From NCBI RefSeq assembly GCF_017569205.1, contig NZ_CP071870.1, positions 62,001 through 126,000 of the forward strand: a stretch of 64,000 bases of DNA, read 5' to 3'. The notes beneath the pieces are model-generated. The model saw only the letters and a program-made list of their open reading frames with translations. It was not told where the DNA came from and did not search any database. The DNA comes from Propioniciclava sp. MC1595 (GTDB taxonomy: Bacteria > Actinomycetota > Actinomycetes > Propionibacteriales > Propionibacteriaceae). Positions 3,439 through 42,259 of this stretch are shown here, piece after piece. The translations under genes and the position numbers were made by a program. The number at the start of each line of letters is the position of its first letter. Position 1 is the stretch's first letter.

Positions 3439-5384
3439 GCTGTCGCTCCTTGGAGGGCGGGCCTGTCGGCCAATGCGGTGAGGGTGGGCAGGTGGGTGGT
3501 GCGGCCCGCGCGGACACCGTTGGCGATCACGAACACCTCGGCTACCTCGTGAACCAGCACCACGGCCGCCAACCCCAGGACGCCGAAAAGGGCGAGCGGG
3601 ATCAGGACCGCGATCAACGCGATCGACAGGACCACGTTCTGCAGCATGATCCGGCGCGTGTAGCGGGCGTGATCGAACGCGTGCGGCAGGAGGCGCAGGT
3701 CGTCGCCCATCAGGGCGACGTCGGCGGTTTCGATGGCGACGTCGGTGCCCATGGCACCCATGGCCACGCCCAGGTCGGCGCTGGCCAACGCGGGGGCGTC
3801 GTTGACGCCGTCGCCGACCATCGCCGTGACCTGGCCCCTTTCCCGCAGCCTGTGGATGATGGTCGACTTGTCCTCGGGCCGCAGGTCGGCGTACACGTCA
3901 GTAATCCCGGCCTCGGCGGCGAGCGCCTGGGCGGTGGCCGTGTTGTCCCCGGTGAGCATCGCGACGGCATAGTCGTGGGAGCGGAAGTGGGCGACGACAT
4001 GGGCGGCTTCGGGGCGGAGTTCGTCGCGGACCGCGATCGCGCCGGTGGTCTGCCCGTCGACCTCGACGAGGACGGCGGTGGCCCCGGCTTGTTGCATCCG
4101 GTCGATGTCGCCGGCGAGTGGGCCTGCCTCGATCCAGCCGGGACGCCCCAACCTTAGGCTGTGCCCGTCCAGGGTGCCGGTCAGTCCGGCGCCGACGGCC
4201 GCCTGCACGTCGTCGGCGGTCGTGGTGGTTTCGGTGGCGGCGAGGATGGCTTTGGCGAGGGGGTGCTCGCTGCGTGCCTCAAGCGCGGCGGCCCAGGCGA
4301 GCACCTGCTCGCGGGTGTGCGGGCCGGTGGTTGTCACCTCGATGACGACGGGTTGGTTGCGGGTGAGGGTTCCGGTCTTGTCCAGGGCGACGGTGCGGAC
4401 CTTGCCGAGGACCTCCATCGCGGCGCCACCCTTGACGAGGATGCCGCGCCGGCTGGCCGCCCCGATGGATGCCACGACGGTGACCGGCACCGAAATGGCC
4501 AGGGCGCAGGGGGACGCGGCGACCACCATGACCAATGCTCGTTGCAGCCACAGGCCGGGGTCGCCCACGGCGAAGCCGGCGACCACAGTCAAGGCCGCTG
4601 CAATGAGGATCCCCGGTACCAACGGTTTCGCGATCCTGTCGGCGAGCCGTTGGGTGGTCCCGCGCCGGGACGACTCGGCCTCGACGATGTGCACGATTCG
4701 GGCCAGCGAGTTGTTGTCCGCGGTCGAGGTCACCTCCACCTCGAGGATGCCGGTGCCGTTGATCGCACCGGCGTACACCTCGTCGGAGGGGCCGACCTCG
4801 ATCGGCATGGATTCGCCGGTGATCGCCGAGGTGTCCAAGGCTGTCCGTCCGGTGCGGATGACGCCGTCGGTGGCGAGCCGTTCGCCCGGCTTGACCACCA
4901 TCAGGTCGCCCAGGATGAGCTCGTCGGGATCGACGACAACCTCGTCGCCGTCGCGCAGCACGGTGGCCTGCCGGGGGACCAGGTCAAGCAGGGCGCGCAA
5001 ACTGTGCCGGGTCCTGGCCAGCGAGTAGTCCTCCAGGCCCTCGCTGAGGGAGAACAGGAACGCCAAGGTCGCGGCTTCCTCGACCTGGCCCAGGAGGGTG
5101 GCGCCCACGGCGCCGATGGTCATCAGTAGACCCACTCCCAGCTTGCCCTTGGCGAGCTTCTTCAACGCACCCGGTATGAACGTCGACCCGCCGACCAGCA
5201 ACGCCACCCCGCTGAGGACGAGCCTGACCGTTTCCCATCCGGCCAGGCCGGTCAGGAAACCGGCCAGCAGCAGGACGCCGGACACCAACCCCAGCTGGAT
5301 GTCACGCACCTGCCACAGGTGGTCCACCGCGTCGTCGTCGCCAGGCGCCGTGGCAATGGGGGCATCACACCCGCACGCCGACAT
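3435..5384 (-). CDS. P1B-type metal-transporting ATPase, CtpG/Cd-Pb-like
   Basis: A 649-residue P-type ATPase counted from ATG 5384, which has GAGGAAGG just upstream. A GTG at 5429 overlapping the arsR stop (GTGA) would add 15 residues and is a good alternative. Motifs: TGES (189-192), SPC in the membrane (291-293), DKTGTLT with phospho-acceptor D335, HP (374-375), GDGVND (524) and HEVAEV in the last membrane pair (612). SPC in place of CPC and HEVAEV resemble mycobacterial CtpG-type exporters of cadmium. The N-terminus holds CGCD, a possible metal ligand, but no HMA domain. Context with a CmtR-like sensor and a CDF exporter supports a Cd/Pb/Zn detoxification role; the exact ion is inferred. 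Confidence 0.92.
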   Translation of the reverse strand: MSACGCDAPIATAPGDDDAVDHLWQVRDIQLGLVSGVLLLAGFLTGLAGWETVRLVLSGVALLVGGSTFIPGALKKLAKGKLGVGLLMTIGAVGATLLGQVEEAATLAFLFSLSEGLEDYSLARTRHSLRALLDLVPRQATVLRDGDEVVVDPDELILGDLMVVKPGERLATDGVIRTGRTALDTSAITGESMPIEVGPSDEVYAGAINGTGILEVEVTSTADNNSLARIVHIVEAESSRRGTTQRLADRIAKPLVPGILIAAALTVVAGFAVGDPGLWLQRALVMVVAASPCALAISVPVTVVASIGAASRRGILVKGGAAMEVLGKVRTVALDKTGTLTRNQPVVIEVTTTGPHTREQVLAWAAALEARSEHPLAKAILAATETTTTADDVQAAVGAGLTGTLDGHSLRLGRPGWIEAGPLAGDIDRMQQAGATAVLVEVDGQTTGAIAVRDELRPEAAHVVAHFRSHDYAVAMLTGDNTATAQALAAEAGITDVYADLRPEDKSTIIHRLRERGQVTAMVGDGVNDAPALASADLGVAMGAMGTDVAIETADVALMGDDLRLLPHAFDHARYTRRIMLQNVVLSIALIAVLIPLALFGVLGLAAVVLVHEVAEVFVIANGVRAGRTTHLPTLTALADRPALQGATA

Positions 5385-8708: not shown

Positions 8709-9161
8709 CTAGGCAGTTCTGGTCGACTCCTCCCAGCGCTTCAGCGAACGGGCCAGTTCGGCGCTGTCTAAGTCGGCCTCCGCATGGAGACCCCAGGCCG
8801 GGCTGGAGCTTGTCAGGGTCAGGCGGGCTGCCGCTGGCGGCGGGAACTCGACGTTCAACCTTGCTACCATTTTGCCTTCGCCTTCGCCGGCTGAGGACCC
8901 GCTTGCTGCCAAAGTAATCGGCACCGGATGGCCGTCGGCGAGGAGTTCGAGTTGCAGCGATGACTCCGGGGAATCCTGGCCCCACCACATGATCTCGTCG
9001 CTCATCCGCGACAGCACGGCTGGATCTTGCGATGAGGCGATGACGAACAGCTCGAAGCCGCACACGTCGCCGGACACGAAACCTCTCGACAGCCAGACCG
9101 TCAGACCCGGCCGGCTTTCCAGGACAGCGTCGAAGGCGATGGTCGATACGGTGATGGTCAT
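8709..9161 (-). CDS. Hypothetical protein
   Basis: A 150-residue acidic protein that I do not recognise. It has no signal peptide or membrane span. The sequence alternates hydrophobic strands with polar turns and has several tryptophans (EIMWWGQD, PAWGLHAEAD, KRWEES), so it is probably a small beta-rich soluble domain. Base composition and codon use are coding-like. It lies next to the remnant cut by the IS21 element and is read in the same direction. There is no ribosome binding site of note before ATG 9161. Confidence 0.5.
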   Translation of the reverse strand: MTITVSTIAFDAVLESRPGLTVWLSRGFVSGDVCGFELFVIASSQDPAVLSRMSDEIMWWGQDSPESSLQLELLADGHPVPITLAASGSSAGEGEGKMVARLNVEFPPPAAARLTLTSSSPAWGLHAEADLDSAELARSLKRWEESTRTA

Positions 9162-9169
9162 GGTTCAGG

Positions 9170-9387
9170 CTAATAGATGTACTTGCAGCGACGGTCAGTG
9201 CCGGTTCGGCCAAGGCAGTCTGCCGTCTTCTTGCCGGTCTGGATCGTGTTCGCGACGGTGGTTTGGGTGATTCCGACCGCTACCGTCAGGCGCTTGCCGG
9301 CCCGGTTGCCGTAGTTGGACAGGGTCTGGCGCACCGTGAGGAGGTTGTCGATCCGGTCCGCGTTGCCGCTTGGGCACGTGGTGTGGA
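9170..9387 (-). pseudogene. Gene remnant cut at the IS21 insertion site
   Basis: The last part of a protein (TVAVGITQTTVANTIQTG ... RRCKYIY) is open up to the IS21 end at 9388. If the IS is removed in silence, the frame meets a stop a few codons beyond the target (in the 85-bp repeat), so the 5' end was already lost or the true start is an internal GTG near 9346. I do not recognise the family. Confidence 0.45.
9370..9387 (+). repeat. 85-bp direct repeat, copy A, left piece
   Basis: These 18 bases (TTGGGCACGTGG and onward) match 18301-18318. The copy is cut here by the IS21 element and continues at 15468-15527. The last seven bases, GTGTGGA (9381-9387), are the target duplication of the IS. 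Confidence 0.8.
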
Positions 9388-9512
9388 TGAGTATTTGGAG
9401 TCTTGAGGGCCACTGATTATTGCGGTTGAGCGCCAGTCGATATTGACTCTCAGGGCCACTGGTATTGCCGGTGAGCGCCACCCCGGTCGCCGCGACGCTC
9501 ACCGGCCCGGGT

Positions 9513-10262
9513 TCAGCCGGCCGCGGCGGCGGTGTGCTCCCGCATGTTGACGTCGCCGGTCTCGATCCAGAGGGTGTTGTGGACGATGCGGTCCATGATC
9601 GCGTCGGCGTGGACCCCTCCGCCGAGGCGCTGGTGCCAGTCCTTCTTCGCGTACTGGGTGCAGAACACCGTCGAGGTCGCGTCGTAGCGGCGTTCGAGGA
9701 GCTCGAGCAGCATGGACCGGACGTCGTCGGTGGGCGGGTCGAGCAGCCATTCGTCGATCACGAGGAGCGTGAACGTGGAGTACTTCCGCAACCACTTCTC
9801 CCGACCGGCGGGCTTGTCTTTCGCCGCGGTCCAGGTCTCTTCGAGGTCGGGCATGCGGATGTAGTGCGCCCGGTAGCGGTGCTGACACGCCTGCTTCGCC
9901 AGCGCCGACCCGAGGTAGCTCTTCCCGGACCCGGTGAACCCTTGGAACACGACGTTCATGTGCCTCTGGATGAACTGGCAGGTCCCTAGCTGCGCGATCA
10001 CGCCTCTGTCGAGCCCGCGTTGTTCGAGCATGTCGACGCGGCGGAGGTCCGCGTTCGGGTAGCGGAGCCCGGCGCGGCGGATGAGGCCTTCGACTTTGGA
10101 GTGGGTGAACGCGGCGTGGGCGTCGTCGACGGCGAGCTTGATCCGCTCCTCGAACACCAGCCCGATCGTGAGGGCGTCGTCTTGGATGTCGAGCGCGTCG
10201 ACGAGGGCGGGGACGCCCATCTCTCGCAGCTTCCGCTTCGTCTCGGAGTCGAGCCGGCTCAT
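9513..10262 (-). CDS. istB: IS21 helper ATPase IstB
   Basis: A 249-residue AAA+ ATPase that assists the IstA transposase in target choice and strand transfer. Walker A is GFTGSGKS, Walker B is LLVIDEW, and an arginine-rich C-terminal part follows (LLERRYDATSTVFCTQY). Start ATG 10262 overlaps the istA stop (ATGA, 10259-10262), the standard IS21 arrangement. It is intact, but its partner is split. It has the length usual for the family. Confidence 0.93.
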   Translation of the reverse strand: MSRLDSETKRKLREMGVPALVDALDIQDDALTIGLVFEERIKLAVDDAHAAFTHSKVEGLIRRAGLRYPNADLRRVDMLEQRGLDRGVIAQLGTCQFIQRHMNVVFQGFTGSGKSYLGSALAKQACQHRYRAHYIRMPDLEETWTAAKDKPAGREKWLRKYSTFTLLVIDEWLLDPPTDDVRSMLLELLERRYDATSTVFCTQYAKKDWHQRLGGGVHADAIMDRIVHNTLWIETGDVNMREHTAAAAG

Positions 10263-33415: not shown

Positions 33416-34807
33416 TCAGGTGCTGTCCAGAGTGGTGAGGGTGGTCAGGGCGCCGATGAGGACGGCCGCCCAGGGGTGGTGGGCGGCGTAGCGGAGCCGC
33501 ACCTGTCGGCTGCCCCGGACCAGGACGGCGGGGATCGTGTACAGCCGGTAGCGGAGCCTCTTGGGTTCCCACCGGCGGGCACTGTCAGCGTCGGCCAGGG
33601 CGAGCATCTGCATCCAGGCGGTGAGCTCGCAGGCGAGGGCGACGATGGCGCACCAGACCTGGTTCTGCGCGAACGAGTACAGGGGCAGGTTCGTCAGCCC
33701 AGTGTCTTTGGCGAGCCGGATCCGGTCCTCGCAGCGGGCCCTTCGACGGTGGCGGAGTTCGAGGTCGGCCAACTGGCCGCGGGTGGTGTTGGTGGCGAAC
33801 GCGGTGATGCGGTGGCCGTCGACGTCGGTGATCCGTAGTTGGGCGCCGGGATGGGGGCGTTCTTTGCGGATGATGACCCGCATCCCGGGCGGCCAGCCCG
33901 ACAGGTCGAGCAGCCCGGTGAGTTCGGCGACCCAGGCGCCGTCGCGGGGCTGCCGGTCGGCGTCGTAAGCGGGGGTCCACACGCGGTCTGGGATCTTCTC
34001 GATCAGCATGCCGGCGTCGCTGGGCAGGGTCCAGCCGACCGAGTACTGGACCCGTTGGCCGGTGAGCCAGTCGAGGAGTTGGTGGCTGTGCCCGGCACCA
34101 TCGGCCCTGACCAACACCCGTTTCCCGGGCCGCGTGGCGGACCGGCCCGGCAGCTGCTTGAACGCTTGCCGCAGGACGGTGATGTGGTCGGCGGCGGTGT
34201 TGGAGCCGGCGTTCCCGGGCCGCAGCAAGAGGGCGAGGGGCTCCCCGGTCCCATCACGGCCGTGATCGACGAACACGCACAAGGGGTGGAACCCGTAGCC
34301 CTTCTTGAACGTCGGCTTGGCATGCTCCTTGTCCGAGTGCGCCGTCACCAACGTGGCGTCCACGTCCACGATCAACGGGTGCTCCACGCTCATGCCGGAG
34401 TCGGGGGCGTGCTCACCGGCCAGCAACCAGGCGCGGGTCCGGGCAGCGGCGCGGGCGGCGTCGATGGCCTTCAACACCCGTGGGGCATCGGCGGCGAGCA
34501 GGCTGATCAGCCTCGAGATGGTCGGGTCGGAAGCCACCATCCCGTAGACGGCCGGCTCGGACCGGAGCAGCGCAGCATCGGCGAGGCAGTCCCCACCCAA
34601 CGCCAGAGTGATCGCCAGGTCGGACAGGATCTTGCCCGGGTCGTGGGTCGCGAGCGGTTTCCGCCACCGCGCCAACGCCGTCGACAACTCGCGGGTGAGG
34701 CCGGTCACCACCGCTGTCTTCGTGAGCAGCATGCCGCCGGCGTGGCCCACGACCCGGGTGGCTCCGGCGTCGTGGCGGGGTTGGGGATACGCGGCGGTAC
34801 GCTTCAC
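33416..34807 (-). CDS. IS1380-family transposase
   Basis: A 463-residue DDE transposase. Landmarks of the family: PLATHDPGKILSDLAITLAL with GGDCLAD, a first Asp in IVDVDATLV, a second in VRADGAGHSHQLLDWL, and the Glu region in RRARCEDRIRLAKDTGL. GTG 34807 gives the usual VKRTAAYPQPR start and has GGAAG upstream; the frame opens earlier at 34888 but crosses the terminal hairpin. It appears full length and intact, so the element may be active. Confidence 0.9.
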   Translation of the reverse strand: MKRTAAYPQPRHDAGATRVVGHAGGMLLTKTAVVTGLTRELSTALARWRKPLATHDPGKILSDLAITLALGGDCLADAALLRSEPAVYGMVASDPTISRLISLLAADAPRVLKAIDAARAAARTRAWLLAGEHAPDSGMSVEHPLIVDVDATLVTAHSDKEHAKPTFKKGYGFHPLCVFVDHGRDGTGEPLALLLRPGNAGSNTAADHITVLRQAFKQLPGRSATRPGKRVLVRADGAGHSHQLLDWLTGQRVQYSVGWTLPSDAGMLIEKIPDRVWTPAYDADRQPRDGAWVAELTGLLDLSGWPPGMRVIIRKERPHPGAQLRITDVDGHRITAFATNTTRGQLADLELRHRRRARCEDRIRLAKDTGLTNLPLYSFAQNQVWCAIVALACELTAWMQMLALADADSARRWEPKRLRYRLYTIPAVLVRGSRQVRLRYAAHHPWAAVLIGALTTLTTLDST

Positions 34808-34811
34808 GTTG

Positions 34812-34880
34812 AAAGTGCTTCCTTCGCGTGGGGTGAGTGGGACTTCGCAATCACATTCTCCCAAGCCGGAAGCACTTTCG
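34812..34880 (-). promoter_or_regulatory. Inverted repeat that can hide the transposase start site
   Basis: GAAAGTGCTTCC (34812-34823) and GGAAGCACTTTC (34869-34880) are perfect 12-bp arms. In mRNA read from outside the IS, the GGAAGC in front of the GTG start would be paired with the upstream arm, which could lower translation; transcripts starting inside would lack that arm. Confidence 0.5.
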
Positions 34881-34973
34881 CTGTTCAAACCACCGAGTCA
34901 GACCCCACCCTCATGAAAGCGCGAGGCTAGGGTTGGGAGGTAGTGCCCACATCGACCCGGGGGAGGAACCTCC

Positions 34974-35661: not shown

Positions 35662-36028
35662 GGCTCTTCATACCTGCGGTGGGTCCAGGGTGAGTCCGCC
35701 GCCGACGAGGAGCATGCGTAGCCGGTAGTTCTCTCGGTTCCGGAACCCTCGGGCGATGCGGCGGTGGAGCTCGATGAGCCCGTTGATTGCCTCGGTGCCG
35801 CCGTTGCTGGCGCGGTCGGTGTCGAAGTAGGCCAGGAACGCGTCCTTCCACTGTCTCAAGGTTCGGCCGAGGCGGGCGATCTCGGGGATGGGGCAGGACG
35901 GGAAGCCGTCGACGACCTGCTCGGCGAGCTGGCGGCCGGCTGCCGGGTCGGGGTGGGCGTAGGCGGCTCGGACGCGTTGGGCGCACTGCCAGGCGATGTG
36001 GACGGCGTCGTGGCGTTCATCGGCGGCG
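35662..36028 (-). pseudogene. ISL3-family transposase, C-terminal fragment
   Basis: The left tip GGCTCTTCATACCTGC is the typical ISL3 end. About 115 codons of the transposase C-terminus follow on the minus strand (DTDRASNGGTEAINGLIE, RIARGFRNRENYRLRML), ending at 35668. The 5' part is lost where the IS3 element begins at 36029, and it is not found on the other side of the IS3. Confidence 0.85.
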
Positions 36029-36102
36029 TGAGGTTGACCCCGTAACCCGGACACCGACTTGGCGGGTTCCCTTGTCGGGGACCGCCGGAGAGGATGTCCT
36101 CG

Positions 36103-36423
36103 ATGGGATCGACGAGGAAGAGAAGGACGTACACGCCGGAGTATCGGCGGGAGGCCGCGCATCTGGTGATCGACACCGACCGGACGATCGCAACCGTCGC
36201 CGGCGAGATCAACGTGGGTGCGCAGCTGTTGGGCCGCTGGGTCCAGCAGGAGCGCGACCGGATCGGTGCCCCACCGGAGGCGCCGCTGGACGCCTCGGAG
36301 CGGGCCGAGTTGGAGCGGCTGCGGCGGGAGAACACCGAGCTGCGGTTGGACAACGAGTTCCTGGGAAAAGCCGCGGCCTTCTTCGCAGCGAAGAACACTC
36401 CCGGCAGGAGTGCTTCGAGGTGA
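36103..36423 (+). CDS. IS3 OrfA (transposase N-terminal protein)
   Basis: A 106-residue protein with a helix-turn-helix (TYTPEYRREAAHLVIDTDRT ... GRWVQQER) and a leucine-zipper-like C-terminus (ERAELERLRRENTELRLDNEFL). ATG 36103 has GGAGAGG nine bases upstream; ATG 36094 touches that site and is less likely. A possible -1 frameshift site, GGGAAAAG, lies at 36363-36369 in the block encoding NEFLGKAAAFF, as in other IS3 members, and would make the OrfAB fusion. Confidence 0.88.
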   Translation: MGSTRKRRTYTPEYRREAAHLVIDTDRTIATVAGEINVGAQLLGRWVQQERDRIGAPPEAPLDASERAELERLRRENTELRLDNEFLGKAAAFFAAKNTPGRSASR

Positions 36424-37313
36424 TCGACGCGGAGAAGGCGAACTACACGATCAGCCGGATGTGCCGGCTGCTCAAGGTTGATCGGCGCCGCTACTACGAA
36501 TGGTGTCGGCGCCAAGCGGCCGGGCGTACCCGGGCCGAGCAACGGCGGGCTGAGCTGACCAGCAAGATCGTGGAGTTCCACAAGGCCTCTGATGGCACCT
36601 ACGGGGCGCCGAGGATCCTGCACGACCTGCGCGACGCCGGGGAGACGGTGTCGGTCAAGACGGTCGCGAAATGCATGCGGCAAGCCGAGATAGCCGGGAT
36701 CAGCCCGCGTACCTGGCATCCCCCGACCACGGTGCCCGGCCCGAACCCCGACCCGGCACCCGACCTGGTCAAGCGCCGGTTCGACCAAGGCCGCCGCGAT
36801 GCCGCCTGGTTCTCCGACATCACCTACCTGGCCACCGGTGAGGGCTGGGCCTACCTGTGCACCGTCCGTGACGGCCACACCCGCCGGGTCCTGGGCCGCA
36901 CCGTCGCCGACCACCTCAGGGCCGACCTGGTCGAGGATGCGCTCCGCCAGGCCGTCGCCCTACGCGGCGAGTTGCCCGGCAAAGTCATCTTCCACGCCGA
37001 TCGGGGCTGCCAGTACACCAGCCAGCAGCTGGCCGACCTGTGCGGCGAGCTGGACCTGCTCCGCTCCATGGGACGCACCGGGGTGTGCTGGGATAACGCG
37101 GCCGCCGAATCGTTCTGGTCAACGTTCAAGAACGAGTACTACCACCGGCACGTGTTCGCCACGATCGGCGCCGCCCGCCGCGGCGCCTACACCTGGATCG
37201 ACGCCTGGTACAACGCCCGCCGACGCCACTCCAGCATCGGCTACCTCAGCCCACTACAGTACGAACACCACCTGGCCCGACAGGCCGACCAGACGGCCCT
37301 CCAAGCCGCCTGA
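36420..37313 (+). CDS. IS3 OrfB (DDE integrase domain)
   Basis: A 297-residue catalytic part. The HTH_21-like start (YTISRMCRLLKVDRRRYYEW ... YGAPRIL) leads to the rve integrase core with DDE residues in WFSDITYLA, FHADRGCQYTS and DNAAAESFWSTFKNE, and ends RRHSSIGYLSPLQYE. GTG 36420 overlaps the orfA stop (GTGA); true production is expected as an OrfAB frameshift fusion. The frame is intact. Confidence 0.92.
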   Translation: MIDAEKANYTISRMCRLLKVDRRRYYEWCRRQAAGRTRAEQRRAELTSKIVEFHKASDGTYGAPRILHDLRDAGETVSVKTVAKCMRQAEIAGISPRTWHPPTTVPGPNPDPAPDLVKRRFDQGRRDAAWFSDITYLATGEGWAYLCTVRDGHTRRVLGRTVADHLRADLVEDALRQAVALRGELPGKVIFHADRGCQYTSQQLADLCGELDLLRSMGRTGVCWDNAAAESFWSTFKNEYYHRHVFATIGAARRGAYTWIDAWYNARRRHSSIGYLSPLQYEHHLARQADQTALQAA

Positions 37314-37351: not shown

Positions 37352-37476
37352 GCCGCGCCGCGCTCGCCGAGCAGCGGGCCGCGTGGCAGACCGTGGACGC
37401 CGCCCTCCGCGCGCTCTGGCACGACGCCACGCGCACCCTCACACCCATCGCCCGTCCCCTTGGAGGCCTCGCATGA
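37352..37476 (+). pseudogene. PadR-family regulator, C-terminal remnant
   Basis: Directly after the IS3 end, about 40 codons (ALAEQRAAWQTVDAALRALW to GGLA) read like the C-terminal helices of a PadR regulator. The stop overlaps the next start as ATGA (37473-37476), and the next gene is of the permease-prefix family that is usually preceded by padR. The DNA-binding half has been lost. Confidence 0.65.
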
Positions 37477-38834
37477 CCACCCCCACCCGCGTCGACGAAC
37501 TCGTCGGCCAGTGGCGCACCGAACTCCTCGGACGCCGCGGCATCGACCCCGCCGACGCCGACGAGCTCGAGGACCACCTCCGCGGCCACGTGGACGCCCT
37601 CACCGCCGCCGGCCTGACCCCCGACGAGGCGGTGCTGGTCGGCGTCCAGCGGCTGGGCCCGCAGCACGCCATCGCCGCCGACCTCGCTCGCGAGCACGCC
37701 GACCGGCTGTGGAAGCAGCACGTCGGCGTCCGGCCCGAGGCGGGGGAGGGGCGCCGGAGCATGCTCGTCATGCTGGTGTTCGCCGTGCTCGCCGGGTTCG
37801 CCGTGCAGATCCCGTTCGGGCTGCTCATGACCACGGCGGACGCTGAACAGGGAGTGCCCCGCCTGTTCGCGATCGGGCTCGTGGCCCTCGCCGCGGTGGC
37901 GACGGCGTACCTCGCGTGGCTGCGGCGTCCACCGGTCGTGAAGGTCGTCGCGGGGGTCGGCGTCCTGTTGGGCGCGGTGCTGCTGGCGCTCCTGGCCTAC
38001 CCGTTCGCCCAACCGTTCGACACGCAGCTGCTGGCCCTGATGCACGCGGTGATCCTGCTCGCGCTGGCCCTCGGCGCCGTGCACCTCGGCCCCGACTGGC
38101 GCGTGGTCGACCGCTGGATGGACTACCTCCGCTTCCTCGGCGAGTGGCTCATCTACTACGTGCTGCTGGCGCTGGGCGGCGGCGTCCTGCTGGGCCTGGC
38201 GCTCGGCGTGCTGGCGCTCGCCGGCATCAGCCCCGACGTCGTGATCGGCCAGTGGATCTACCCCATGGCCATCGGCGGCGCGGTGATCGTCGCCGCGTGG
38301 TTGGTCGAGGCCAAGCAGGGCGTCATCGAGAACATGGCCCCCGTGCTCGCCGCGGTGTTCACGCCGCTGTTCACCCTGCTGCTCGTCGTGTTCCTGGCCG
38401 TGCTGCTCGCGACCGGCAACGCGGCGGACGCCGACCGCTGGGTCCTCATCCTCGTCGACCTGGTGCTCGTCGTGATCGTCGGGCTGCACCTCTACTGGGT
38501 GTCGGCCCGCACCCCCGGACGCCCACCCGGTTGGGCCGACCGCCTGCAGTTCGCGATGGTCGTCGTCGCCCTCCTCGTGGACGCCGTGGTGCTCGCCGCC
38601 ATGGCCGGACGCATCGGCGAGTACGGCGCCAGCCCCAACAAGCTCGCCGCCCTCGGCGAGAACCTCGTCCTGCTCGGCAACCTCGCCGGCGCGGCGTGGC
38701 TGTCGCTCGGGGTGCTGCGCCGGCGGCGTCCGTTCGTCGACCTGAGCCGCTGGCAGTGCCGCTACCTGCTGGTCATCGGCGTGTGGGCCGCGTTCGTGGT
38801 GTTCGTGCTGCCGGTGGTGTTCGGGTTCCGGTGA
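37473..38834 (+). CDS. Permease-prefix-domain membrane protein
   Basis: A 453-residue protein. Residues 5-75 are the permease prefix domain 1 (VDELVGQWRTELL ... DELEDHLRGHVDALTAAGLTPDEAVLVG), followed by about ten membrane spans from residue 90 to the end. Such proteins are encoded with PadR regulators and have no proven function; some are parts of MacB-like permeases. Its regulator is now only a remnant, so control from the native promoter is probably lost. Its stop codon touches the stop of the next, convergent gene. Confidence 0.8.
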   Translation: MTTPTRVDELVGQWRTELLGRRGIDPADADELEDHLRGHVDALTAAGLTPDEAVLVGVQRLGPQHAIAADLAREHADRLWKQHVGVRPEAGEGRRSMLVMLVFAVLAGFAVQIPFGLLMTTADAEQGVPRLFAIGLVALAAVATAYLAWLRRPPVVKVVAGVGVLLGAVLLALLAYPFAQPFDTQLLALMHAVILLALALGAVHLGPDWRVVDRWMDYLRFLGEWLIYYVLLALGGGVLLGLALGVLALAGISPDVVIGQWIYPMAIGGAVIVAAWLVEAKQGVIENMAPVLAAVFTPLFTLLLVVFLAVLLATGNAADADRWVLILVDLVLVVIVGLHLYWVSARTPGRPPGWADRLQFAMVVVALLVDAVVLAAMAGRIGEYGASPNKLAALGENLVLLGNLAGAAWLSLGVLRRRRPFVDLSRWQCRYLLVIGVWAAFVVFVLPVVFGFR

Positions 38835-41252
38835 TCAGCGGCGGCTGCGCCCGCGCAGCCAGCCGACGACCCACAACCCGCCCGCGACGAGCAGCAACGC
38901 CCCACCCGCGGCCGCGAGGTGGAGGCCGCGGCTCGTGCCGGTGCGCCACACGCGCACCTCGAACGACGCCTCGTGGGGGTTGCCCGCCTCGTCGAGGCCC
39001 CGCAGCACGATCGTGTGCGTGCCCGGCGCCAGGTCGGGCGGCAGGGTGACGAACCCTTCCGGACGCCGCGTGTCCGGGTTCACCGGCAGCGCCCCCAGCG
39101 GGATCGGCAGCGAGTTCACCGTGACCGTCACGTAGACCGTGGCGAACTCGCACTGCTCGATGCACAGGCTCACGTCGACGCTCTGGCCCGGCTCGGTGAC
39201 GATGTTGGGCAGGGTGAGCGCCGGGCCGGCCGCGCCGAGGGTGGTCGGCGTGTCGACCCGGCGCATGCCCCCGCGTGCCGCCGGCCAGACCTTCAGGTCG
39301 CGGTAGTCAGCCGGGTGGGCGGTGAGGTCGAGCGGCTCGACCGTGCGCGACCACTCGACGAGGCTCGCCGCGATGTAGGCGTGCCCCGCGGCGTTGGGGT
39401 GCATGAGCTCCTGCTTCGCGGCCGGGGAGCTGTTGTGGTACCAGATCTTCACCGCCGACGCCGGGCCTTCCCACCGCAGCGGGTTGATGTAGGTGTCGTC
39501 GCCGTCGCAGAGCGTGTGGTCGGGCAGGAAGGCGTACTCGACCGGGCTGGCGAGCTGCACCGGCACCCCGTCGGCCGCCGCCGCGGCGACCGCCTCGCGA
39601 ACGGTCTTGTTCAGCTCGCCGACGAACTGGTTGGCCAGGGTGAGCTCGTGCGGCGAGATCCACAGGAAGCAGCCCGCGCCGCCCGCCGCCGGGATCGGCC
39701 GCACGTACGGCAGCACGACCACCTGGGCGATCTTGCCCTCGCGCTTGGCGATCGCCACGGGCGCGTTGACGACCGCGTTGACCTCCTTGTAGGCGTCCTT
39801 GATGCGGGCGCCGAGCGTGCGCCACTCGATGGCGGGGCGCGTCGGCGGCGCGTCGTCAGCGGTGGAGTTGAGCATGTAGTCGGTGACCACCTGCCCGAAG
39901 CCCACGTCGTTGCCGCCGAGGGTCATCAGCACGAGGTCGGGCGGGTTGTCGGAGGCGGTCAGCTCAAGCAGTTGCAGCAGCTGCGGCTTCACGGTGCCCA
40001 TCGAGTTGGAGCCGCTGTTGCGGTTGTCGTTGGCCATCGCCCAGTCGTCGTAGACCGCGCCCGAGCAGGCGACCATGGCGGCGTCCGGGAAGAGCACCCG
40101 GCCGTACGCCTTCGCCGACCGGTGGCACCACCACTCGCGATGCGGCATCGACGAGTCGTAGTCACCCGCGCCCTCGCCCGAGGAGTACGAGTCGCCCATG
40201 ATGACGACGCTCTTCGCCTCGGAGAAGATGCGTCCGCCCGAGGCGACGGTGGTGCCCGACGTCAGCCGCACCGTGCCCGTCTCGCTCGCCACCGGCACGC
40301 CGCCGGCCACGAGGCTCGCCTTCCACGTCACGGGTCCGTCGGCCGTCGCCATCGGGTAGAGCAGCAGGGTCTTCTCGACGGACGCCCCCACGTCCAGGTT
40401 GCCGAGGGGGATCGTGCCGAGCGGTTCGGACTCGATGCGGCGGGCCGCGTCACCGGAGTGGAAGGTGACGACGAGGGAGGCGTCCGGGATGAGGGCGCTG
40501 CCGGTCGCGGTGACCTTGACCTTCATCTCGGCGGCGAGGTCGCGGGAGCGCCCGGTGACGCGGGGGAGCGTCGCGGGCAGGCTGACGTCGAGGTCGGCCC
40601 CGTAGGAGGAGGCGCGACGGACGGCGTCCACGAGGCCGGCGACGTCGTCGACGGTGGTCGACGTGCCGCCGGTGCCCCGGGCGAGGCAGGCGAGCGACGC
40701 GTCCCCGTCCGGGGTGTTGTTGAGGCTGACGGTGTGGATGCGCAGCTTGATGCCCTGCTGGTCGAGCATCGGCACGACCGAGCAGACGTCGTTCGACTCG
40801 CCACAGTTCGCCTCGCCGTCGGTGACGAGCACGACCTGCGCGTTCTCGTAGCCGTTGTTCTTGACGTTGCGCATGATCTCCTTGAGCGCCGGCACAGTGG
40901 GGGTGTTGCCGGTGGCGCTCAGCAGGTTCACGGCGAACTGGGCGTTGCCCTGGTTGACGCGCGCCGGGCGGATGTTGAACCGGCCGGCGGGGCAGCCGTC
41001 GACCATCTTCCGGCTGCCCGGGAACGTGTACAGCGCGAACACCTGGTCGGACTGCAGGCCCGTGATGAACGACCGCGCGGCCGCCTGGGCGGCCTGGAGG
41101 CGCTGGCCCTCCATGGAGCCGGAGACGTCCATGACGAGGTAGACCGGCACCGCGCTGTGCGGGTTGCGGGTCTCGGCGGCGGCGGGCAGCGTGGCGAACC
41201 CCAGGGTGACGAGCACCGTGGCGAGGGCGGCGAGCAGGCGGCGCATGGTCAC
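38835..41252 (-). CDS. Secreted von Willebrand A / SGNH-hydrolase fusion, membrane-anchored
   Basis: An 805-residue exported protein. Signal peptide 1-27, then a vWA domain (about 35-215) with a complete MIDAS start DVSGSMEG and TDGEANCG, a beta-rich linker, an SGNH lipase/esterase domain (about 350-640) with GDSYSSGEGAG (nucleophile Ser), GGNDVGF and HPNAAGHAY (catalytic His), a C-terminal Ig-like part with paired cysteines and a membrane span at about 777-797 followed by RGRSRR. It could deacylate a lipid or glycan at the cell surface and bind a partner by metal adhesion. It overlaps the PASTA/NPCBM gene by ATGA. Confidence 0.85.
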   Translation of the reverse strand: MTMRRLLAALATVLVTLGFATLPAAAETRNPHSAVPVYLVMDVSGSMEGQRLQAAQAAARSFITGLQSDQVFALYTFPGSRKMVDGCPAGRFNIRPARVNQGNAQFAVNLLSATGNTPTVPALKEIMRNVKNNGYENAQVVLVTDGEANCGESNDVCSVVPMLDQQGIKLRIHTVSLNNTPDGDASLACLARGTGGTSTTVDDVAGLVDAVRRASSYGADLDVSLPATLPRVTGRSRDLAAEMKVKVTATGSALIPDASLVVTFHSGDAARRIESEPLGTIPLGNLDVGASVEKTLLLYPMATADGPVTWKASLVAGGVPVASETGTVRLTSGTTVASGGRIFSEAKSVVIMGDSYSSGEGAGDYDSSMPHREWWCHRSAKAYGRVLFPDAAMVACSGAVYDDWAMANDNRNSGSNSMGTVKPQLLQLLELTASDNPPDLVLMTLGGNDVGFGQVVTDYMLNSTADDAPPTRPAIEWRTLGARIKDAYKEVNAVVNAPVAIAKREGKIAQVVVLPYVRPIPAAGGAGCFLWISPHELTLANQFVGELNKTVREAVAAAAADGVPVQLASPVEYAFLPDHTLCDGDDTYINPLRWEGPASAVKIWYHNSSPAAKQELMHPNAAGHAYIAASLVEWSRTVEPLDLTAHPADYRDLKVWPAARGGMRRVDTPTTLGAAGPALTLPNIVTEPGQSVDVSLCIEQCEFATVYVTVTVNSLPIPLGALPVNPDTRRPEGFVTLPPDLAPGTHTIVLRGLDEAGNPHEASFEVRVWRTGTSRGLHLAAAGGALLLVAGGLWVVGWLRGRSRR

Positions 41253-42259
41253 TCGCCCAGCTGGTCGAGCTTGTCGGGGTCGCCGACGAGCCGGATGTCG
41301 CCCAGCACCAGCACCGGCCGCGGGGACGCCTCGGGCCCCGTCACCTCGATGCGCAGCCGCAGCACGTCGCGCACGGGGACGCGCAGCGGCTGGGAGGTGC
41401 CGAACGCCACGTCCATCGTGGCCAGTTGGGTGCCGTCACCGAGGACGCGGACGGTCGCCGACCCCACGCCCCCGGTGTCGAGCATGCCGATGGTGGCGTC
41501 GAGGAAGGTGGCGTGGCGTCCGATGGCGTACTCGAGGTGGGCCGGGCGATCGGGCCGGCCCGGCGTGCACGTCAGCGCGAGGGCGTGGAGCGTGCCGTTG
41601 ACGGTCTGGTCCTTGGCGCGGCTGCAGGCGGTGTAGGTGACGGCGTCGAGGTCGGTCAGCGCCATCGCCTCGCCCCCGTCGGAGACCTTCAGCACCACGT
41701 TGACCGGCATCGGCTGGCCGGCGGCCGGCTCGGTCGAGAGCACCACGCCGGCCGGCTGGTCGGCGGTGGTGACGCGGTCGACCTGTGCGACGCCGAAGAG
41801 GTCGGTGACCGACCGGCGGGCGTCGTCGGCGGGCTTGCCGGCGAGGTCGGGCATGGTGACGGGCTCGCTGAGGGTGAGCTGGGCCGTGGCGTGGTCGAGG
41901 GGGAGCTGCTCGTGCGGGTCGGGTTGCTGCCTGACGACGTACCCCTGCGGGCCGGCCGCCGGAACGGTGTCGGTGGTCACCTGTGCGGCCGTGAACCCCG
42001 CCGACGCGATGACGGCCCGTGCCGACGCGACGTCGAGGCCCAGCACGTGCGGGAACCGCGCGGTCGTGGCGGCCTCGGCCGCCTGCTCCTCGGGGGCGAC
42101 CACCACCTGCTGCGTCACCCGCGCCGGCCAGACGACCTGGCCCAACCCGGCTCCGGCCACCAGGAGCCCCAGCGTGCCGACGACGGCGGCGGCGATCTTC
42201 AGCCTGCGTCCCGGCTTCGCTGCGCGGGGCGTGGGCTCGTGCGTGTCAGGGTGCTGCAT
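41249..42259 (-). CDS. PASTA-domain membrane protein with NPCBM-like domain
   Basis: A 336-residue protein with a short basic cytoplasmic start, a span at about 23-45 and two PASTA domains (PHVLGLDVASARAVIASAGF and MPDLAGKPADDARRSVTDLF with following strands). The last 130 residues (AVTYTACSRAKDQTVNGTLH ... HATFLDATIGM) look like an NPCBM/CBM51-type sugar-binding domain. PASTA domains bind muropeptides. GGGAGGAACC precedes ATG 42259. It is the first gene of a coupled pair with the vWA-SGNH protein, so the two may form one cell-wall complex. Confidence 0.82.
   Translation of the reverse strand: MQHPDTHEPTPRAAKPGRRLKIAAAVVGTLGLLVAGAGLGQVVWPARVTQQVVVAPEEQAAEAATTARFPHVLGLDVASARAVIASAGFTAAQVTTDTVPAAGPQGYVVRQQPDPHEQLPLDHATAQLTLSEPVTMPDLAGKPADDARRSVTDLFGVAQVDRVTTADQPAGVVLSTEPAAGQPMPVNVVLKVSDGGEAMALTDLDAVTYTACSRAKDQTVNGTLHALALTCTPGRPDRPAHLEYAIGRHATFLDATIGMLDTGGVGSATVRVLGDGTQLATMDVAFGTSQPLRVPVRDVLRLRIEVTGPEASPRPVLVLGDIRLVGDPDKLDQLGE

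Follow-up and report, generated by a model that had tools for sequence, protein, structure and literature searches.

Actinobacterial genomes and plasmids carry a conserved two-gene unit, recognised here from sequence, in which a gene for a fusion of a vWA domain with an SGNH hydrolase domain is preceded by a gene for a membrane protein with PASTA and NPCBM domains (hereafter the partner). We describe it from a 64,000-nucleotide stretch of the genome of Propioniciclava sp. MC1595 (contig NZ_CP071870.1, positions 62,001 to 126,000), referred to as the window (Table 1). A chance arrangement is ruled out because reading frame, architecture and gene order are conserved in divergent loci. With a probability of roughly 0.5, we propose that the pair constitutes a transferable accessory unit of the actinobacterial envelope, whose output would be a localised remodelling of surface acyl esters at the ligand of the partner.

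A conserved pair of genes

At least 23 distinct fusion loci were counted in named and further genomes and in plasmids, three of them on Rhodococcus plasmids (L161, L162 and L163). Besides the window, they comprise Arachnia propionica (L041/L047), Mycobacterium sp. BK086 (L043), Mycolicibacterium vinylchloridicum (L044), Mycolicibacter senuensis (L045), Agreia pratensis (L048), Williamsia soli (L049), Williamsia sp. 1135 (L053), Arthrobacter sp. SO3 (L055), metagenome-assembled genomes (MAGs) of Frankiaceae (L046/L131), Bifidobacteriaceae (L050 and L054), Acidimicrobiales (L051), Leucobacter (L052) and Propionibacteriaceae (L056/L134), and the loci L042, L099, L100, L132 and L133. Scanning the named genomes with an alignment profile returned at least 37 loci, of which 14 (L043-L056) matched beyond the vWA region; the remaining 23, whose match was confined to the vWA region, were not taken into the fusion count. 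A single-sequence search of genome contigs with the fusion protein alone confirmed no relative, whereas the alignment query did find relatives. As the fusion is a single open reading frame (ORF) in most relatives, at many loci, its interpretation as an annotation artefact was rejected.

The initial annotation, made from the window alone, had proposed a two-part unit and a domain-architecture search as its check. That search finds the architecture of fusion and partner recurring across these loci, and the pair, with its predicted surface topology, is kept at 21 of the 23, the partner lying directly upstream on the same strand. The partner was identified through its Pfam domains at nine loci (the window, L042, L043, L044, L045, L048, L049, L050 and L053), eight of which show two PASTA stretches and one (L045) a single stretch; through phmmer similarity at a further nine (L041/L047, L046, L052, L055, L056, L099, L100, L132 and L133), with only its last 106 amino acids on the contig at L052; and from the record annotation on the three plasmids. 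At L051 and L054 the fusion ORF runs off the start of the contig, hence the presence of the partner cannot be judged; both carry a different N-terminal part, which in L051 is alpha/beta-hydrolase-like (Pfam cut-off narrowly reached, 26.0 against 25.8 bits). In one relative, the N-terminal part of the partner contains an LRV_2 domain.

Among 198 family genomes, a full-length partner (at least 270 bits) was found in G000, which is the window's genome, and in G046, G032, G118, G105 and G128, the same six that bear the fusion; in G105 and G128 the fusion is broken or split, and the G105 partner match spans two stop codons. Within 148 class genomes, partner matches occurred in seven, at full length in three (G000, G286 and G357), all fusion-bearing, and partially in four. 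Also in favour of the proposed unit, fusion and partner distances are correlated (r 0.91, 15 pairs, reached by 0 of 2000 permutations; r 0.60, 13 pairs, 0 of 5000 permutations, with close pairs thinned to one). A lesser match in G096 covers the NPCBM part only. The broken or split fusions are those of G105 (L100), G128 (L056/L134/L135) and the R. qingshengii plasmid pLP1 (L163), whose ORF ends after the SGNH domain. The genome of the window, a single contig of 3.43 Mb, holds one copy of the pair.

The initial annotation also reported that start and stop of the two genes overlap. This holds, by four bases (GTGA), only when the fusion gene is taken to start at the GTG at 41252; the ATG two codons on would leave a 2-base gap. 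In the relatives examined, the two genes either overlap or lie no more than 15 bases apart.

Domains, predicted folds and active site

The fusion reached the Pfam cut-offs of VWA_2, VWA, Lipase_GDSL_2 and Lipase_GDSL, and the partner those of PASTA, in two stretches, and NPCBM (profile positions 48-119 of 137), in agreement with the vWA, SGNH, PASTA and sugar-binding-like domains first noted; the scan of the partner gave these two families and no kinase domain. Conservation was assessed in an alignment of 21 fusion proteins, i.e. the 15 of the distance comparison, the three plasmid copies and L052, L051 and L054, leaving out the broken L056 and L100. All five residues of the metal ion-dependent adhesion site (MIDAS) are conserved in 21/21, and these residues, together with the fold of the AlphaFold2 (AF2) model (Z 18.9-22.8 to vWA chains), support the assignment as a vWA domain with a MIDAS. 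In a Pfam scan of nine relatives, the VWA cut-off was reached by all nine and that of a GDSL family by five (L043, L044, L045, L048 and L052).

At sequence level, the presence of the serine in a GDS block, the oxyanion glycine and asparagine, and the histidine places the hydrolase domain in the SGNH/GDSL superfamily. Ser355 and His618, which had been reported as intact, are each kept in 20 of the 21 aligned proteins, Asn448 in all, and the three together in 20, while Gly398 is found in 19, with Ala in L161 and Ser in L054. Glu615, three residues before the histidine, is present in 17/21, the other four having His, Gly or Gln there; set against the 20/21 of the catalytic Ser and His, this leans towards a Ser-His dyad. 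According to the available portions of PMC10779480, Ser10, Asn82 and His216 are essential in the Streptomyces rimosus lipase (SrL), in which Ser10 and His216 form a catalytic dyad, Gly54Ala is tolerated and three disulfides occur; L161, with Ala at the glycine position and Ser, Asn and His retained, is consistent with this tolerance. Cysteines at 376, 396 and 582 occur in 21/21, and position 528 aligns unevenly.

The SGNH part of the model matched SrL (5mal; Z 24.7, root-mean-square deviation (rmsd) 2.2, 226 residues aligned), the S. albidoflavus phospholipase A1 (PLA1; 4hyq; Z 24.6, rmsd 2.3, 228 residues) and 1esc, which we take to originate from S. scabies (Z 23.1, rmsd 3.4, 254 residues), with 32-34% sequence identity to the first two. 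With SrL and PLA1 it shares the fold, the positions of Ser, Gly, Asn and His, and the cysteines at 376/396 and 582, so that by modelled fold and active-site positions the domain is assigned to this Streptomyces lipase type. SrL and PLA1 are free secreted single-domain enzymes, whereas the SGNH domain described here is one of several in a membrane-anchored protein whose gene is paired with that of the partner. A profile search of PDB sequences returned five at E 0.1 or better, among them 4hyq (1.9e-30), 5mal (9.3e-25), 1esc (2.8e-12) and 2waa (0.0029), and none of the five is named a peptidoglycan O-acetylesterase.

The model of the partner (mean predicted local distance difference test, pLDDT, 86.2) matched PknB and StkP PASTA chains in its PASTA part (Z 11.4-11.7) and CBM51 chains in its NPCBM part (2vmg, 2vng, 2ygl and 7jrm; Z 17.3-18.5, 13-17% identity), and this predicted fold and the Pfam cut-off place the latter in NPCBM/CBM51. 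The same fold is found in the CBM51 modules of Clostridium and Streptococcus glycosidases and of ZmpB, which are appended to other enzymes.

The folded parts of both proteins are predicted to lie outside the membrane, the partner as a type II protein with its N-terminus inside and the fusion as a type I protein. A C-terminal hydrophobic stretch, the membrane anchor of the initial annotation, was detected in 15/15 fusion proteins scanned; the tail behind it is net positive in 14 and, in the Arachnia fusion, is longer and has a net charge of -2. Basic residues precede the partner's transmembrane helix in 15/15 partners. This charge pattern agrees with the predicted topology, and a lack of surface location, which would have told against the earlier proposal, was not seen in these predictions. 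The Ig-like part proposed for the fusion was borne out as strands in the AF2 model at middling confidence, but Pfam Big_13 stayed below its cut-off (15.3 against 27 bits); the model holds a second beta-rich part, between vWA and SGNH, that had gone unmentioned.

Table 1. Coordinates of the gene pair, its main domains and other features named in the text
Feature	Record	Positions	Strand	Description
vWA-SGNH fusion (P0001)	window	38835..41252	-	805 aa; predicted secreted, C-terminally membrane-anchored; signal peptide, vWA with MIDAS (aa 37-205), beta-rich part (~219-331), SGNH hydrolase (~345-635), beta-rich part (~692-769), transmembrane helix (~774-800), basic tail
PASTA/NPCBM partner (P0002)	window	41249..42259	-	336 aa, predicted membrane protein; upstream of fusion; basic N-terminus (predicted inside), transmembrane helix (~19-43), two PASTA (~64-195), NPCBM/CBM51 (~196-328)
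vWA domain	window	40599..41153	-	MIDAS D42, S44, S46, T117, D145
SGNH domain	window	39327..40220	-	S355 (GDSYSSGEG), G398, N448 (GGND), H618
Fusion relative, Acidimicrobiales MAG	L051	1-3558		one ORF: alpha/beta-hydrolase-like part, vWA, SGNH
vWA-SGNH relative, Bifidobacteriaceae MAG	L054	2-3475		SGNH Ser and His lost
PASTA-PASTA-NPCBM gene	L152 (G103)	8732-9724		standalone, lipoprotein-like
Kinase-PASTA-NPCBM gene	L153 (G128)	3500-5338
Transposase gene	window	35787-37313		1.5 kb from pair
Transposase gene	window	33416-34888		3.9 kb from pair
Convergent gene	window	37383-38834		hydrophobic protein; no Pfam family at E 0.1
Three-gene regulator set	L162	1454-4376
Three-gene regulator set	L049	13211-16073
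Three-gene regulator set	L053	13785-16647
TIR-WD40 gene	L100	4842-6917		near broken copy in G105

Distribution, surroundings and known systems

The full-length fusion was found in at least 4 of 394 class genomes, including that of the window, and in at least 2 of 396 genomes of a phylum draw overlapping the class draw (E 1e-80); both counts are lower bounds because scoring took in no more than the two best first-look candidates of each genome. Neither the full-length fusion nor the partner was found in 12 congeners, two of which are only 72-73% complete. Matches to the fusion occurred in 4 of 72,556 plasmid records, the three examined all being from Rhodococcus, and none in 50,697 phage records at E 1e-10. 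In these three plasmid records the proteins are named only 'VWA domain-containing', 'PASTA domain-containing' or 'NPCBM/NEW2 domain-containing'. Both protein trees join G032, a genome of the window's family, to a Bifidobacteriaceae MAG (support 1.00 and 0.997). On L161 and L163, annotated transposases occur no more than about 5 kb from the pair, none being listed in the L162 stretch shown, and two transposase genes are found near the pair in the window. In GC content, the pair (0.728) is unremarkable next to its flanks (0.733 and 0.710). The distribution is patchy, and judging from these comparisons the pair has probably been transferred horizontally as a unit.

An all-against-all comparison of neighbours at 16 loci found only the pair itself to be widely shared, and a conserved wider operon was rejected. 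Of the 16 loci, four, forming two close pairs, have genes for a response regulator and a sensor kinase in their flanks, and relatives of these genes occur close to the fusion and partner on one Rhodococcus plasmid; in L043 and L044 a regulator/kinase pair lies upstream. In L162, L049 and L053, a set of three genes is found no more than about 5 kb from the pair, one for a LuxR-type regulator and another for a histidine-kinase-like ATPase; between the Rhodococcus plasmid and Williamsia soli the three are alike, at 55, 43 and 39% identity. Relatives of both window transposase genes are found near the pair in L056.

Each of the domains is known, and the pairing is without a description that we could find in the open-access literature, i.e. 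outside subscription journals and preprints, as the initial annotation had supposed; within the same literature, no paper was found that treats NPCBM together with PASTA. The available portions of PMC12419801 likewise hold no description of the pair. The partner resembles PASTA receptor Ser/Thr kinases of the PknB type in its transmembrane helix followed by PASTA domains, but has no kinase domain. A kinase-PASTA-NPCBM protein sharing the NPCBM domain was found in L153 (G128); behind its gene lie genes of 1407 and 97 aa, the latter by eye WXG100-like, suggesting a type VII secretion neighbourhood.

Profile matches relate the vWA domain to those of actinobacterial vWA proteins whose genes have a Ser/Thr kinase and a helix-turn-helix (HTH) protein gene nearby (L136-L139 and L141). 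Unlike the fusion, the vWA-only ORFs of L137-L141 match no GDSL family, and the kinase and HTH types of these loci (queries from L141) were not found at the fusion loci scanned. Neither a related kinase nor an HTH protein lies near the vWA-only gene of L140. By eye, the kinases begin with GEVFAGRYEL in L136, L137 and L141 and with GEIFAGRYEL in L139. As in the MoxR-vWA conflict systems set out in the available text of PMC7159879, a vWA domain is joined here to an effector-like domain; those systems are, however, defined by a MoxR-type AAA+ partner, whereas here a signal peptide precedes the vWA domain and the partner is a PASTA-NPCBM protein.

Candidate function and its alternatives

In the proposed envelope unit, the PASTA-NPCBM partner would read or grip peptidoglycan or an envelope glycan, with the vWA-SGNH protein standing beside it; in a metal-dependent manner, the MIDAS would contact either the partner or a peptide or glycan of the envelope. 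The SGNH domain, being of the S. rimosus lipase and S. albidoflavus phospholipase A1 type, would take acyl chains of medium to long length off lipids or lipoglycans where membrane and wall meet, and the remodelling would be restricted to sites where the partner meets its ligand. Substrate, complex formation and role of the pair are our inference. The outside domain of PknB binds lipid II containing meso-diaminopimelic acid (available text of PMC6428115), which by analogy makes wall binding by the partner plausible. A more specific version is rather improbable: a wall-reading PASTA-CBM51 receptor without a kinase would partner, through the vWA metal site, with a tethered lipase, and the state of the wall would license deacylation of surface lipids or lipoglycans, for instance hiding a phage or conjugation receptor, all within a self-contained, horizontally transferred unit.

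Several points weigh against the proposed envelope unit. Peptidoglycan binding is not universal among PASTA domains. The AF2 model of the fusion is of moderate confidence (mean pLDDT 73.5, predicted template modelling score 0.48), and the GDSL cut-off was missed by L046, L049, L050 and L055. L054 has lost the Ser and His of its SGNH domain and kept the MIDAS, and the window protein lacks Cys 459/464, which the 20 other aligned proteins keep. G103 carries a standalone lipoprotein-like PASTA-PASTA-NPCBM gene (143 bits) with no fusion adjoining. In the protein trees many other nodes are weak and placements, including that of the window, partly conflict. Finally, the permutation tests on fusion and partner distances make no correction for shared ancestry.

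Some of these observations would suit an adhesion or sensing unit, in which SGNH would be mainly a binding or structural module and vWA, PASTA and CBM51 would do the work. The MIDAS is kept in 21/21 proteins and the catalytic residues in 20/21, L054 has a dead SGNH domain, 40 of the 394 class genomes match in the vWA region only, and the five vWA-only proteins scanned are VWA proteins with no GDSL family, five such loci lying near a Ser/Thr kinase. We nevertheless consider this function unlikely, as the retention of Ser, Asn and His in 20 of 21 divergent proteins points to catalysis in nearly all of them.

Less likely still is the O-acetylesterase unit suggested in the initial annotation, whose partner would bind peptidoglycan or wall polysaccharide while SGNH removed acetyl groups. 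PASTA and CBM51 would place the pair at the wall, and the carbohydrate esterase 2waa is a weak profile match, but SGNH has its strong matches in a phospholipase A1, a lipase and an esterase, and the five-entry PDB list contains no enzyme named for this activity. Mycolate esters, a substrate suggested in the initial annotation, were rejected as the general one. The pair occurs in Agreia and Leucobacter (Microbacteriaceae), Propionibacteriaceae and Bifidobacteriaceae, which to our knowledge make no mycolates; a mycolate cannot therefore be the general substrate.

Least probable is an envelope conflict unit, in which a surface lipase would alter a phage or conjugation receptor on its own cell or attack the lipids of touching cells: the patchy distribution (4/394 class genomes and none of 12 congeners), the grouping of G032 with a Bifidobacteriaceae MAG and the plasmid copies, two of the three examined with transposases close by, would fit it, but eight neighbour proteins scanned at six loci comprise one TIR-WD40 protein, three metabolic or RNA enzymes, one AAA-TPR protein, one DUF4190 protein and two without a family, and PADLOC-DB 2.0.0 has no family for the fusion and matches the partner to PD-T4-6 models in the PASTA region only. 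A defence island is unsupported by these neighbours.

If the proposed envelope unit holds, the pair would represent an envelope system of two genes, having its PASTA protein paired with an enzyme instead of fused to a kinase, and carried by mycobacteria, Williamsia, other actinobacteria and Rhodococcus plasmids. It offers a clear, testable set of surface proteins that, in the plasmid records examined, have so far been named only by single domains.

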